From contig NZ_LT160638.1 of assembly GCF_900048895.1 (NCBI RefSeq), positions 1 to 64,000 on the forward strand: a stretch of DNA of 64,000 bases, in the 5' to 3' direction. Made by a program: the position numbers and the translations under genes. The notes under the pieces were generated by a model, which saw only the letters and a program-made list of their open reading frames with translations, did no database searches and was not told where the DNA came from. Below are positions 10,215 through 16,490 of the stretch, piece by piece (the first letter of the stretch is position 1; each line of letters begins with the position of its first letter). This DNA comes from Neglectibacter timonensis (GTDB taxonomy: Bacteria; Bacillota; Clostridia; Oscillospirales; Acutalibacteraceae).

Positions 10215-11018
10215 TTGGAAAAAAAGAAGGATAGCAAAAGTCCCGTGAGGGACGATACTGATTCCCGCAGCAACGATTTGATCGCCGGAAGAAACGCCGT
10301 TTCAGAAGCGCTGCGCGCAGGCAGGTCCATTGACCGCCTCTATGTGCAGCGCGGAGAAAAGAACGGCAGCTTGCTCACCCTGATTGCAAAGGCAAAGGCG
10401 GCGGGAGCCGCTGTCAAGGAGACGGATTCCCGGAAGCTTGACCAGCTCTGCGGCGGCGCGGTGCACCAGGGAGTAGTGGCGGTGGCCGCCGTTAAGGAAT
10501 ATGCTCAGGTGGAAGACATTTTTGCACTGGCGGCAGACAGGGGGGAGCCGCCCTTCCTGATCGTCTGCGACGAGCTGGAGGATCCCCACAATCTGGGTGC
10601 TGTGATCCGCACGGCGGAGTGTGCGGGAGCCCACGGGGTGATCATACCCAAGCGGCGCAGCGTGGGGCTGACCTATGCGGTGGGGAAGGCCTCGGCGGGC
10701 GCGGTGGAGCATCTGCCGGTGGCAAGGGTGCAGAATCTTCCCTCCCTGTTGGACGAGCTCAAAGAAAAGGGCGTGTGGGTCTATGCCGCAGATATGGATG
10801 GAACGCCGTGGTGCGAGACTGATTTTACCGGTCCTGTGGCGCTGGTAATCGGTTCCGAGGGCAGCGGCGTCGGCAGACTGGTCAAGGAAAAGTCAGATTT
10901 TGTGATCTCGCTTCCCATGAAGGGCAGGATCAATTCACTCAATGCCTCTGTGGCCGCAGGAATCCTCTGTTATGAGGTCTCCCGCCAGAGGAGCGGACTA
11001 AAAGCAGTCAATCCGTAA
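10215..11018 (+). CDS. rlmB: TrmH/SPOUT rRNA methyltransferase (RlmB type)
   Basis: A 267-aa protein. The N-terminal substrate-binding domain contains IAGRNAVSEALRAG. The SPOUT knot domain has DPHNLGAVIRTAECAGAHGV (motif 1), LVIGSEGSGVGRLVKEKSD (motif 2) and SLNASVAAGILCYE (motif 3), which form the knotted SAM site. RlmB 2'-O-methylates G2251 of 23S rRNA; paralogues act on other RNA sites, so the exact target is inferred. The start is uncertain: TTG at 10215 lies 14 bases after AGAAGG, whereas an out-of-frame ATG sits at 10201. The next gene follows 15 bp later with a strong ribosome site. Confidence 0.88.
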   Translation: MEKKKDSKSPVRDDTDSRSNDLIAGRNAVSEALRAGRSIDRLYVQRGEKNGSLLTLIAKAKAAGAAVKETDSRKLDQLCGGAVHQGVVAVAAVKEYAQVEDIFALAADRGEPPFLIVCDELEDPHNLGAVIRTAECAGAHGVIIPKRRSVGLTYAVGKASAGAVEHLPVARVQNLPSLLDELKEKGVWVYAADMDGTPWCETDFTGPVALVIGSEGSGVGRLVKEKSDFVISLPMKGRINSLNASVAAGILCYEVSRQRSGLKAVNP

Positions 11019-11033
11019 AGGAGGAAATCCGAT

Positions 11034-14027
11034 ATGGGAGAAGGAAACCATCAGGAATTCTCATTGGAAGATATCTTGGAAGAACAGAGGCGTCAGCGGG
11101 CCAAGCAGTCCGTAGAGGAGCCGCCGGAGGAGCTTCCCCAAGAGGCGCCGCCGGAGGCTGAGCAGGAGCCTGCTCAGCAAAGGCAAGATCAAAACCCGCA
11201 GCATGGGGGAACAGAGCCTGCGGAGGAGGCGGAAGATTTAAACGCCTTTGCCACAGGCCGGGTCTCTGTGCCGGGAGTTTCCCAGGAAATGCAGGAGCCT
11301 GCAGGGGAAGGGGACGGAAAAAAGAAAAAGAAAAAAAAGAAGGGCGGCCTTTTTGGAAGAAAAAAGCGCGCCCCTGATTTCGACGAAGGCGAGGACATGT
11401 ATTACGGCATACAGCTTAAGCCTTTGGACGAATACCGAAAGGGCTTTGATCCTGTCACCGGGGAATTTACTTTGGGGGAGGACAGCTTCAAGGCGCTGTT
11501 TGACGACTCCAAGCAGGCCATTGACGACGAAGTAGAGGCCAATTTCCAAAAACTGCAGAAGGAGCGCCGCCGCCGTGTGGCCGAAGCGGTGCAGACGGCA
11601 GGCGTGGATGAAGAGCAGATCGCCGACGAGCTGGGCATTGTAGCTCCCATGCCGGTCACTGCGTTTGCCGCCGATCCCTATGCAAAGCAGCATGGAATCG
11701 ACGTGGAAGGGGCCGGCTCCTCCAAGGAGGAACTTCCGGAGTTCCAGCGGGCTATGCTGGAAACTTCCGGCGACAAAACCATGGAGATCAAACTGAACGT
11801 CCTCAATGACACGGTGGAAATTCAGCGGGTGAAGGAAATGCCCGCGGTGAGCGAGGAATCGGTCAATAAGATTCTCAGCTCTGCTGTGGAGAAGGAAGAA
11901 GAGCTTCCCACAGAGCAGGCACTGCCGGATGAGCAGGAAACGCCTCAGGCGGAGGAGCTTCCCCCTGTTCCGGACCAACCAGTTCCGGAACGGCAGCCGG
12001 ATGCGGAGCCGGCCGCCGCCAGCCAGGAGACAGTGATTGTGGGGCGTCCTCTGGGGGAAATTCCCCAGGTGGCCAGTATTTACGAGTACCGCTCCAGGGG
12101 AATTCCCACCCATATCATCAACGCAGACGTCATTCAGAGTGCGCTGCTTTCCGAATCGGAAGAACTGCGCAGGACTGCGGAGGAGTTGGAGAGCAAGAGG
12201 GTCCCCCGCAAGCGTGTCAGAAACAAAAAGCTGGAAGAAGAGCATGTGGAAGCGGAGCCTGTGCCGGAAGTCCAGACCGAGGAATCCATCGACGACTATA
12301 CCGGTCCGGAAGATGCCAAATCCATTTCTCACGAGCTGCGGGGCGATATGCGCGAACTGACGCTGCGCATGCTGATTACCGGTGTCTGTACGGTGCTGCT
12401 TACCATTGTCAACCTAATCTTCGGCGGGAAGTTTTCCAGTACCGCGGTAGGGGATTTGGGATCCGCTCCCTACGTGTATCTGATAGTAACCCTGGTGTTT
12501 CTCGGGGTATCTATCGGTATCTGTTACCGCACGATCGGCAACGGCCTCCGGGCGCTGTTTTCCTTCAATGCCAATTCGGACAGTGCGGCGGCGGTGGCAT
12601 CTGTGGCGGTGCTGGTACAGACAGTCTTCTCCCTGTTCTTCAGTTCTGATTTGGCCGAAGGCAAGCTCCATCTCTACGCGGTGGTGCTCTCCGCCATCCT
12701 TTTTGTGAACGCGGCGGGCAAGCAGACGATGCTGCGGCGTATCCACAGCAATTTCAGGTTCGTCACCTCCCGGGAGCAGAAGTACAGCGTACGTACGTTT
12801 GACGATTACAATACCTCCTTGAAAATGACCAAGGATTGCGTGGCGGAAAAGCCGCTTATTGCCTATCAGTGCAAAACCGGGTTTTTAAAGCGTTTCCTGG
12901 AACTCTCCTATAATCCGGATCCTGCTGAGACGGCGTCTCAGTTCCTGGCGCCGATTGGGCTGATCGCTTCCCTGGTGCTGTGCATTGCCTGTTTGCTAGT
13001 CACCAGAAGCGTGCCTACAGCGCTCAGCGCTTTGGCGGCTGCCTGCTGTACCTGCGTGGCGGTGGCGAATATGCTGGCCGTCAACCTGCCTATCAGCCGC
13101 CTGTGCAAGACGGCCCGCAGGGCCGGGGCCATGGTGGTAGGCTATGAAGGCGTGGAGGAGCTGAGCAATGTCAACGCGGTACTGGTGGATGCGGAGGAGC
13201 TCTTCCCCTTGGGCACCGTTGTGTTAAACGGAATCCGCACCTTTGGCGGGCGGACTTCTGCAGAGGAGGCCATCATGGCGGCCTCCGCCCTGATGAAGGA
13301 AGCCGGCGGCCCCTTAAGCGGAGTGTTTGAGCAGGTGATCAGCGAGAATGAGGAAGCTCTTCCCGAAGTGGAAAACATCAGCTATGAGGACGAGCACGGC
13401 ATTACAGGCCGTGTCAACGGCAGGCGAATCTATATCGGCAACCGTGCCCTGCTGGTGAACCACCAGATTGAGGCTCCGGCACGGGAGGAGGAAACTCAGT
13501 ACTCTTCTGGAAATAAGCAGGTGGTATATCTGGCGGTGGACAACGCCCTGGCCGCCATGCTGGTGCTCACCTATACGGCGGACCGCCGCCGTAAAAACGA
13601 GCTGCAGCGGCTGGAAGACAGCGGCGTAAGTGTTGTGATCCGCACCAATGATATGAATGTGACGCCCCAGCTCGTCTCCCGTCTGTTTGGCGTGGACGCC
13701 GCTTCGGTAGGCGTGCTGGGTAGCCAGCTCAGCGAGGTAGGCAGGAAGCTGATGTCCGGTTCCATCCCCCGTGCGGACGCCAAGGTTGCCACAAAAGGCC
13801 GGGTGGAATCTCTGATGAGCGTGGTATCTGCCTGTGTGCATGAACGGAGAAGCATGGGGTTGATCGTAGCCCTGCAAAATGCCGCCGTGATTTTGGGGTT
13901 TGTGCTGGTAGCTTTCCTCAGCTGTTTTGGCGGCATGAAACAGCTGACCTCTTTCGTGCTCTTCGTGTTCGAATTGTTCTGGCTGTTGGTGATTCTGCTG
14001 CTGCCTAAGCTGCGCAGGCCTTACTGA
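11034..14027 (+). CDS. P1B-type ATPase-like membrane protein lacking catalytic motifs
   Basis: A 997-aa protein. Residues 1 to about 440 are cytoplasmic, acidic and Pro/Glu-rich, with an eight-Lys tract near 100. The rest follows the P1B metal-pump plan: four membrane helices (about 446-562), two (637-684), a large cytoplasmic domain, two more (943-991). The metal-site CPC is Cys-Thr-Cys (672-674). The phosphorylation motif DKTGT is Asp719-Ala-Glu-Glu-Leu. TGD is Thr-Asn-Asp (871-873), and no GDGxND hinge is visible. An N-domain-like stretch (GRVNGRRIYIGNRALL) remains. It therefore should not pump by the normal cycle. AAAGGAGG precedes the ATG; it is coupled to the rlmB-like gene. A scaffold or sensor role is a guess. 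Confidence 0.75.
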   Translation: MGEGNHQEFSLEDILEEQRRQRAKQSVEEPPEELPQEAPPEAEQEPAQQRQDQNPQHGGTEPAEEAEDLNAFATGRVSVPGVSQEMQEPAGEGDGKKKKKKKKGGLFGRKKRAPDFDEGEDMYYGIQLKPLDEYRKGFDPVTGEFTLGEDSFKALFDDSKQAIDDEVEANFQKLQKERRRRVAEAVQTAGVDEEQIADELGIVAPMPVTAFAADPYAKQHGIDVEGAGSSKEELPEFQRAMLETSGDKTMEIKLNVLNDTVEIQRVKEMPAVSEESVNKILSSAVEKEEELPTEQALPDEQETPQAEELPPVPDQPVPERQPDAEPAAASQETVIVGRPLGEIPQVASIYEYRSRGIPTHIINADVIQSALLSESEELRRTAEELESKRVPRKRVRNKKLEEEHVEAEPVPEVQTEESIDDYTGPEDAKSISHELRGDMRELTLRMLITGVCTVLLTIVNLIFGGKFSSTAVGDLGSAPYVYLIVTLVFLGVSIGICYRTIGNGLRALFSFNANSDSAAAVASVAVLVQTVFSLFFSSDLAEGKLHLYAVVLSAILFVNAAGKQTMLRRIHSNFRFVTSREQKYSVRTFDDYNTSLKMTKDCVAEKPLIAYQCKTGFLKRFLELSYNPDPAETASQFLAPIGLIASLVLCIACLLVTRSVPTALSALAAACCTCVAVANMLAVNLPISRLCKTARRAGAMVVGYEGVEELSNVNAVLVDAEELFPLGTVVLNGIRTFGGRTSAEEAIMAASALMKEAGGPLSGVFEQVISENEEALPEVENISYEDEHGITGRVNGRRIYIGNRALLVNHQIEAPAREEETQYSSGNKQVVYLAVDNALAAMLVLTYTADRRRKNELQRLEDSGVSVVIRTNDMNVTPQLVSRLFGVDAASVGVLGSQLSEVGRKLMSGSIPRADAKVATKGRVESLMSVVSACVHERRSMGLIVALQNAAVILGFVLVAFLSCFGGMKQLTSFVLFVFELFWLLVILLLPKLRRPY

Positions 14028-14316: not shown

Positions 14317-14417
14317 GAACCATGCCTCGTGATCTTTGGTTGTCTTATACAGTCAAGTACATGACCGGCAGCGGCCAAGGGCCGCAAAATTGTGGTTGTG
14401 GAAGGAGCGATTCGGTT

Positions 14418-16490
14418 ATGAATCCCTATCAGGCAAAATCTATTATCAATCTCGCTGTGGCGGGCCACGGCGGTTCGGGAAAGACTTCACTCGCCGAGGC
14501 GATGCTCTATCTCGCCGGAGCTTCCGACCGGCGCGGCAAAGTGGATGACGGAAATACCGTGTGCGACTACGACCCTGAAGAGGTTCGCAGGAGAACGTCG
14601 ATCTCGGCGGCGGTAGCGCCTGTCGAGTGGAAAAATAAGAAGATCAACCTGCTGGACGCGCCCGGCCTGTTTGACTTTGAGGGCGGCCTCTGTGAGGCGA
14701 TGCGGGCTGCGGATACGGTACTTATTGTAATCTCCGGCAAAAACGGCATTGCCGTGGGAACGGAGAAGGCCTTTGAGGCCGCATCCAAGCGGGATTTGGC
14801 GAAGATTTTCTTTGTCAACGGCCTGTGCGATGAGAGCGCCCGGTTTTATCGCGTATTTGAGGATTTAAAAGCCCAGTTCGGTCCTTCCGTCTGTCCGGTG
14901 GTGGTTCCCTTTATTCAGGACGGTCAGGCCAATATCTATATCAATTTGCTGGAATACAAGGCGTACGATTATTCCGGCGGCAAGCCGGTGCCCGTTCCCA
15001 TGCCCGATATGGGAGACCGGCTTGAGGGCCTGCGCACCGCTATCTATGAGGCTGTGGCGGAGACGGACGACGCCCTGTTTGAAAAATATTTTGCAGGCGA
15101 AGAATTCACCCCGGAAGAGGTGATTGTGGGTGTCAGCAAGGGTGTGAAATCGGGTGCGATCACCCCTGTGTTCTGCGGCGACGCCATGCTCATGCGCGGT
15201 ATGGAGCAGTTCCTGGACGGCCTTGCCTGGCTTGCTCCCTCTGCGGAGGAAAAGGCCGGGGAAGTGGGTCTGGATGTGGACGGCAATCCGGTGGAGCTTC
15301 AGGTAAACGAAGGGGCTTCCCCCGCGGCGATAGTCTTCAAAACCGTGGCCGATCCCTTTATTGGAAAGCTCTCTTATGTAAAGGTTATTTCAGGAAAAAT
15401 TTCCACGGAATCCCAGCTTGTTAACATGCGTACCGGAAATACCGAACGCATTGGCAAAACCGTAATGATGTGCGGCAAAAAGCAGGAGGATGTGAAATAT
15501 ATCGGCGCTGGGGATATCGGTGCCATTCCGAAGCTCACTTCCACCAATACAGGCGATACTCTTTGTTCCCCGGCGCACAAGGTGGTGCTTGACGGCGTAG
15601 AGTACCCCAATCCCACCCTTTCCATGGCCATTGTGCCCAAGAATAAAGGGGAAGAGGATAAAGTGGCCCAGGGCATGCTCCGTCTCTCCGAGGAGGATCC
15701 CACTCTGAAATTTACCACCAATCACGAAACCCATGAGATGGTGCTCAGCGGACTGGGCGAGCAGCATCTGGATGTGGCGGTTTCTAAGCTCAAGGCAAAG
15801 TTTGGCGTGGATATCACGCTGAAAAAGCCAAAGGTTCCCTATCGGGAGACCATTCGCAAAAAGGTGCAGGTGCAGGGGCGGCATAAGAAGCAGACCGGCG
15901 GCCACGGCCAGTTCGGTGATGTGTGGATTGAGTTTTCTCCCTGTGACAGCGACGGATTGGAATTCGGCGAACGTGTGGTGGGCGGTTCGGTGCCCAAGGG
16001 CTTCTTCCCCGCAGTGGAAAAAGGCCTGCGGGAATGCATCCTGAAAGGTCCGTTGGCGGGCTATCCGGTGGTCGGGCTTTCCGCTGTGCTCTACGACGGT
16101 TCCTATCATCCGGTGGACTCCTCCGAAATGTCCTTCAAGATGGCCGCCACTTTAGCGTATAAAGCGGGCATGCCCCAGGCGAATCCTGTGCTGCTGGAGC
16201 CTATCGGCCTGCTGCAGGCCACGGTGCCGGACGCCAACATGGGCGATATTATGGGCGAGGTCAACAAACGCCGGGGCCGCGTGCTGGGAATGAATCCCGC
16301 AGGAGAGGGAAAACAGACTGTGGAGGCCGAGGTGCCCATGGCAGAGATGCATGACTTCTGCACCTACGTCCGCCAGGTAACCCAGGGCCGGGGCAGCTTC
16401 ACCTTTACTTTTGAGCGCTATGAGGAGGCTCCCTCCAATGTGGCCCAGAAGGTCATCGAGGAGGCTAAGGCTGAGAACGGAGACGACTGA
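14418..16490 (+). CDS. Elongation factor G paralogue (EF-G-like GTPase)
   Basis: A 690-aa translational GTPase with G1 AGHGGSGKTS, a switch-II DAPG (DTPG in most), and the domain II to V pattern of EF-G, including GQFGDVWIEF and the C-terminal GRVLGMNP segment. The guanine-specificity motif G4, normally NKxD, reads VNGLCDES, so the Lys is lost. It resembles the EF-G-like (FusA2) branch more than canonical FusA, which usually lies in the rpsL-rpsG-tuf operon, absent here. The start at 14418 has GAAGGAG about 10 bases upstream. Role in translocation, ribosome recycling or a specialised process is not decided by sequence. Confidence 0.85.
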   Translation: MNPYQAKSIINLAVAGHGGSGKTSLAEAMLYLAGASDRRGKVDDGNTVCDYDPEEVRRRTSISAAVAPVEWKNKKINLLDAPGLFDFEGGLCEAMRAADTVLIVISGKNGIAVGTEKAFEAASKRDLAKIFFVNGLCDESARFYRVFEDLKAQFGPSVCPVVVPFIQDGQANIYINLLEYKAYDYSGGKPVPVPMPDMGDRLEGLRTAIYEAVAETDDALFEKYFAGEEFTPEEVIVGVSKGVKSGAITPVFCGDAMLMRGMEQFLDGLAWLAPSAEEKAGEVGLDVDGNPVELQVNEGASPAAIVFKTVADPFIGKLSYVKVISGKISTESQLVNMRTGNTERIGKTVMMCGKKQEDVKYIGAGDIGAIPKLTSTNTGDTLCSPAHKVVLDGVEYPNPTLSMAIVPKNKGEEDKVAQGMLRLSEEDPTLKFTTNHETHEMVLSGLGEQHLDVAVSKLKAKFGVDITLKKPKVPYRETIRKKVQVQGRHKKQTGGHGQFGDVWIEFSPCDSDGLEFGERVVGGSVPKGFFPAVEKGLRECILKGPLAGYPVVGLSAVLYDGSYHPVDSSEMSFKMAATLAYKAGMPQANPVLLEPIGLLQATVPDANMGDIMGEVNKRRGRVLGMNPAGEGKQTVEAEVPMAEMHDFCTYVRQVTQGRGSFTFTFERYEEAPSNVAQKVIEEAKAENGDD

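Follow-up and report, generated by a model that had tools for sequence, protein, structure and literature searches.

How can an intact gene be maintained for a protein that resembles a metal pump and carries none of the motifs that power one? This question is posed by an open reading frame in the window (the whole stretch of 64,000 nucleotides analysed here, from a gut bacterium), whose product consists of a 427-residue acidic head and a 570-residue core. An aspartyl-phosphate cycle is what defines the P-type ATPases, a textbook family, and the main point of the initial annotation was that this protein keeps the fold of a P1B pump without its energy-coupling motifs. The analysis supports this point. 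The gene is intact and has a strong ribosome-binding site, as had been claimed; its parts and neighbours are the following.

10215–11018, plus strand: rlmB, 23S rRNA G2251 2'-O-methyltransferase, the upstream neighbour (TIGR00186, 242 bits, cut-off 160)
11019–11024, plus strand: AGGAGG ribosome-binding site, read directly, in the 15-nt gap from the rlmB stop codon (11016–11018) to the ATG
11034–14027, plus strand: predicted pseudo-P1B-ATPase gene, 997 amino acids, ATG start (open reading frame, NCBIfam, PDB and profile comparison)
11034–12314, plus strand: cytoplasmic head, residues 1–427, acidic (98 Asp/Glu, 52 Lys/Arg), with conserved islands
11058–11084, plus strand: head motif FSLEDILEE, residues 9–17, recurring across the order
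11319–11342, plus strand: poly-Lys run of the head, starting at residue 96
11400–11423, plus strand: conserved head island YYGIQLKP, residues 123–130
12348–12734, plus strand: transmembrane helices 1–4, residues 439–567 (hydropathy)
12735–12926, plus strand: shortened A-domain loop, TGES stretch deleted (alignment, spacing)
12927–13097, plus strand: transmembrane helices 5 and 6, residues 632–688 (hydropathy)
13056–13064, plus strand: CPC columns, here Val-Ala-Val, residues 675–677 (alignment to pumps)
13098–13814, plus strand: extent of the modelled P/N loop, in which GxG retains its second Gly and GN its Gly
13188–13202, plus strand: DKTGT position, here DAEEL, residues 719–723 (alignment)
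13644–13652, plus strand: TGD position, here TND, residues 871–873 (alignment)
13848–14018, plus strand: last two transmembrane helices, residues 939–995; the preceding GDGxND stretch is deleted
14418–16490, plus strand: EF-G paralogue, downstream (NF009381, 860 bits, cut-off 583); the mechanical frame begins at 14322 and the family match at its residue 33

Kinship with P1B pumps

The window protein matches the NCBIfam model for heavy-metal P-type ATPases (TIGR01525) at E 1.2e-16, with a score of 60.7 bits that lies below the curated cut-off of 346.25, and the copper ATPase of PDB entry 3rfu at E 1.8e-14. A Pfam search with the same protein (E up to 10) returned no P-type match, and PF00122 was found in 1/46 relatives (E 0.0091); no Pfam model of the family's own was found, and its NCBIfam matches are sub-threshold only. 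With hhalign, an alignment of 46 relatives, all of the own bacterial family, was compared with nine true pumps, taken from this genome and from other orders; the two groups are related with 99.8% probability and E 5e-28, and the aligned region begins at the first helix and extends beyond TGD. The own genome contains six E1-E2 ATPase matches besides the window gene. A search of it for a second copy found none; the two further matches, both weak, lie in other pump genes.

Hydropathy reveals eight hydrophobic segments in a 4+2+2 arrangement, both in the window protein and in the family average, which bears out the P1B layout first proposed; an extra hydrophobic peak at residues 829–847 sits in the N domain. 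The assignment of the membrane part is based on alignment and hydropathy, the AlphaFold model of the full core being poor (pLDDT 43). The P/N loop is better defined. Its AlphaFold2 model, built from twelve close sequences, has a pLDDT of 79.4 and a pTM of 0.73, with two good models among five (pLDDT 79, 70, 36, 35 and 32). When this model is compared with known structures by Foldseek, copper and zinc P1B ATPases come out on top (4bbj, E 6.7e-12; 3rfu, 9.5e-12). The query-normalised TM-scores are moderate, 0.33–0.56 among the 50 matches listed, and the target-normalised score is at most 0.80, for single N domains, among the matches listed. The expected structural match to P-type ATPases is thereby obtained for the P/N loop; for the membrane part it was not confirmed by fold, the model there being poor.

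The spacing of the motif positions is that of a pump as well: 43 residues separate the CPC and DKTGT positions (43 in pumps), and 154 separate DKTGT from TGD (153 in pumps). The protein is thus like the copper P1B ATPases (CopA; PDB codes 3rfu, 4bbj and 3a1c) in homology, helix arrangement, P/N fold and motif spacing.

Loss of the catalytic motifs

CopA-type pumps have CPC, DKTGT, TGES and GDGxND, whereas the window protein is without all four. The motif count covers 78 distinct relatives, aligned with nine true pumps for reference; two true pumps (L158 and L159), two broken or cut loci (L154 and L157) and two duplicates (L050 and L016) were excluded. All 78 are alike in lacking the energy-coupling motifs. 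The TGES and GDGxND columns are empty, that is, deleted, in 78/78. The Lys of DKTGT occurs in 0/78, so that Asp and Lys are never found together, and neither DKTGT nor GDGxND is kept in a single relative, which answers in the affirmative whether the altered motifs are common to homologues across species. In place of DKTGT a new signature has arisen, with D in 52, A/S/D in 73, any residue, D/E in 72, L/I/V in 77, F/Y in 77 and P in 59 of the 78 sequences.

In the window protein, numbering and alignment agree on Asp-Ala-Glu-Glu-Leu (719–723) for DKTGT and on Thr-Asn-Asp (871–873) for TGD, both as annotated. The absence of a visible GDGxND is also correct, the stretch being deleted: TGD to M7 measures 78 residues against 109 in pumps (31 shorter). 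The A loop has 90 residues against 155 (65 shorter), so of the recognisable A- and N-domain sequence initially described, the N-domain fold is sound and the A domain survives only in part, without TGES. The Cys-Thr-Cys at residues 672–674, taken for the metal-binding CPC, is present, but the CPC columns fall on the next three residues, Val-Ala-Val. The motifs were lost by defined deletions, with the CPC–DKTGT–TGD spacing unchanged.

It follows with high confidence that these proteins would not transport through a phosphoenzyme cycle. An active P-type pump with re-invented catalytic residues might be sought in the Asp at the phosphorylation position (52/78) and in the Asp of TGD (76/78). We consider it extremely improbable, since the phosphorylation Asp is not universal, two catalytic stretches are missing altogether, and the Lys of LPQDK, like that of DKTGT, is practically absent (1/78). 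Homology, together with a catalytic loss common to members and maintained under selection, identifies the protein as a P-type pseudo-ATPase, a pseudoenzyme predicted to lack catalysis.

What, then, might the conserved loop be for? As a nucleotide or metabolite sensor, the P/N loop would bind a ligand and signal to the membrane core or the head without hydrolysis. The retained N-domain fold, the second Gly of GxG and the Gly of GN (each invariant, 78/78), the TGD Asp and the presence of nucleotide-bound CopA domains among the top fold matches all speak for such a role. In P1B pumps a Glu and a His contact the nucleotide; here they are replaced, the Glu being found in 0/78 and the His of SEHP in 1/78, and we regard a sensor as rather unlikely. 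A metal or membrane sensor had been suggested initially, and its metal part is weakened because the Cys pair of CPC is absent in 78/78 (any Cys there, 1/78).

A passive channel, or a regulatory subunit of another transporter, would use the helix bundle to gate ions or to bind a partner transporter. The eight-helix layout and the Pro at the CPC position (59/78) would suit it. Against it, the M7 Asn, like the Cys pair, is found in 0/78, and the M8 Met column holds Met in 5/78. This explanation is less probable than the sensor.

The nearest precedent is human TMEM94 (ERMA), a disputed pseudo-P-type protein. It is eukaryotic and the window family bacterial, and the comparison is made independently of any P1B kinship of TMEM94. 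One structural paper (PMC12134183) argues against P-type catalysis by TMEM94: it reports that the protein lacks TGES, that nucleotide was not seen at the Asp proposed to be phosphorylated and that the protein did not cycle under the conditions used. The paper nevertheless reports micromolar affinity for AMPPCP, which lends the sensor some support. On that account, a P-type layout and the absence of TGES are common to TMEM94 and the window protein. Another paper (PMC13322241) calls TMEM94 the ER Mg2+ ATPase.

Distribution, selection and gene neighbourhood

The spread of the family through the sampled order, which we take to be the GTDB order Oscillospirales, goes far beyond the single gene of the initial annotation. 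A profile search matches 226/245 genomes at 1e-30 and 223 below 1e-35, once per genome except in three genomes with two; 223/245 is the safer figure, as three matches above 1e-35 are near the reach of true pumps (best 2.2e-31 in the phylum sample and 3.2e-33 in the class sample described below). In the own family 186/200 genomes match at 1e-5, a count that may include genuine pumps among its weakest matches. Among the 14 family genomes without a match, the profile finds nothing in nine and only true pumps or another decayed pump in five; incomplete assemblies may account for some of them.

Outside the order, a class sample (291 genomes, E ≤1e-30) contained no pseudo-pump, its seven other-order matches being true pumps that all carry DKTGT, TGES and GDGxND. 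A phylum sample (299 genomes, E ≤1e-25) gave 54 places in 52 other-order genomes, covering the P/N part only. The 26 places that were read comprise 25 true pumps, one near-canonical decayed pump (L211) and no pseudo-pump, and the remaining 28 all lie within positions 201–486 of 571, like true pumps. Behind 30 rlmB genes of other orders no core was found in flanks of up to 1.5 kb (two below 600 nt), in which a very long head could conceal one. Two scans of viral contigs yielded no relatives. Phage records gave ten unannotated matches, the best over 94% of the core with 35% identity (E 4e-81), and three, from Staphylococcus and Enterococcus records, spanning the P/N part only; all ten are probably bacterial DNA or true pumps. 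MT835952.1 and others are unannotated fecal 'Bacteriophage sp.' records that encode relatives of the window protein. Among the open-licence papers listed on inactive or pseudo P-type ATPases we found no description of the protein.

A tree of 87 sequences parts the pseudo-pumps from the nine pumps with moderate support (0.795), consistent with a catalytic loss that happened once in the order. Pairwise dN/dS between the window gene and 11 relatives is 0.06–0.28 where computable, and 0.09–0.26 for the head alone, with dS near saturation in these comparisons. Such low values point to purifying selection, as had been surmised from the intact frame.

These data bear on whether the gene is simply a decaying pump, a pseudogene or local mutant. 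Its motifs are lost, 2/82 loci are broken or cut (L154 and L157), and other decayed pumps exist (L196 and L211). The low dN/dS, the presence across the order and the new signature common to members contradict it, and with motif loss in 78/78 relatives we reject a local mutation or pseudogene. One of the other decayed pumps (L196, 388–2661, plus strand) is a separately decayed P1B pump in a genome of about 1.0 Mb from the same family. By eye, its CPC, DKTGT, TGES and GDGxND are all altered, as in the window protein, yet the stretches are present, whereas the window family has TGES and GDGxND deleted; its 3.6-kb locus, which extends just 387 nt upstream of the frame, has no rlmB match. The other (L211, 250–2700, plus strand), from another phylum lineage, is a near-canonical copper-type pump in which Gln replaces the Asp of DKTGT and GDGxND is altered.

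The neighbourhood was compared in 82 loci, of which one (L013) is cut by a contig end and two (L017 and L050) represent a single locus that was retrieved twice. On the same strand, rlmB lies upstream in every locus that could be tested (81/81), including 30 that belong to 23 further families of the order; its distance was measured to the start of the open frame and not to the start codon. In L154, where the match is split over two frames, rlmB lies 1094 nt upstream of the second, and the first begins beside it. The pseudo-pump gene is apparently cotranscribed with rlmB. Downstream, the order is looser. The next clear gene in the window is the EF-G paralogue; EF-G-like genes, which group together in one single-linkage cluster, occur within the eight nearest frames in 23/82 loci, and in 14 loci (one fetched twice) such a gene is the immediate downstream neighbour and has the same orientation. 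Across the 82 loci no transporter gene keeps a constant position, and an ABC-ATPase-like cluster (by eye) occurs seven times in 6/82 loci at scattered positions, which speaks further against a subunit of another transporter.

Several other neighbours were noted. Directly after the pseudo-pump, a ribulose-phosphate 3-epimerase-like gene (by eye) occurs in eight family loci (L063–L066, L069–L071 and L073) and a rubrerythrin-like gene (by eye) in three loci (L079, L083 and L085). In the other orders, 11/30 rlmB loci continue with a frame containing a VDGYNIIN-type sequence, presumably as in the Rae1/YacP nuclease. The NYN_YacP (Rae1-type) domain occurs in 17/59 genomes of the order, always in open frames of 861–1334 residues, apparently fused to a larger protein that by eye is a candidate EF-G/TetM-like one.

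The acidic head and a possible role

A long motif-bearing head is found in most pseudo-pump members, unlike copper P1B ATPases. The head had been described as long, acidic and disordered-looking, with a poly-Lys tract; the acidity and the Lys run are there, but it is not mere filler, given its conserved islands and low dN/dS. An alignment of 20 own-family heads contains the islands YYGxQLKP and IPxHIINADxLQSALxSE. Across members, 45 to 1087 residues of open frame precede the core, and these lengths, counted from the frame start, are upper bounds; the minimum of 45 is that of L142. Because some members have little or no head, the core must work without it. Family f10 of the order (G265, G232, G405 and others) is almost headless, with open frames of about 541–596 residues, which suggests that the core by itself is the minimal unit.

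A FSLDDILAE-like motif is present in 35/78 heads, 23/49 from the own family and 12/29 from other families; this set differs slightly from that of the motif counts (L013 out, L157 in). The strict pattern, [FYIL][STDN][LVI][DEN][DEK][IL][IL].[EQDS] within the first 130 residues, was composed after inspection of the heads, and in 200 shuffles it matched 0.04 heads on average and one at most. That it occurs in many families favours a genuine linear motif.

We favour, with moderate confidence, a dead pump that was fixed in the order and acts as a membrane scaffold or receptor instead of a pump; a scaffold had also been among the roles first suggested. Docking would take place on a platform formed by the eight helices and the P/N piece. 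The variable acidic head would serve as a flexible tail, with short motifs to bind a partner in the cytoplasm: the FSLDDILAE-like one near its start and, in the own family, also the YYGxQLKP and IPxHIINADxLQSALxSE islands. A ribosome- or translation-related partner is our first guess because of the rlmB linkage and the frequent EF-G paralogue nearby; it is the weakest step, and we hold it to be doubtful. The linkage to rlmB may reflect a gene order that was inherited, and not function, and the strict head motif is found in fewer than half of the heads. In its complete form the proposal is that throughout this order a copper pump became a fixed membrane platform without catalysis, made with RlmB, whose docking-motif tail ties the ribosome or a translation factor to the membrane, and as a whole this is speculative.

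If this complete proposal is right, the protein is a bacterial pseudo-pump whose role is a core one and lies outside transport. A family without the cycle that is linked to rlmB and has roughly one copy per genome in almost all members of the order that were sampled would mean that the P-type fold is useful beyond transport. An unannotated near-core gene thereby gains a name and a test, and homology-based annotation of such a pseudo-pump as a metal transporter calls for caution.

The head motif was also considered as a general tag and rejected. The own genome gives one match. In 79 genomes of the order there are 29 matches in 24 genomes, against five in a reversed control. Of 28 motif loci that were read, ten hold the core in the same fragment and four more (L239, L240 and, probably, L242 and L246) resemble pseudo-pump heads cut by the fragment. 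The other 14 are different frames, among which a single conserved gene accounts for four, each from a separate genome of one family.
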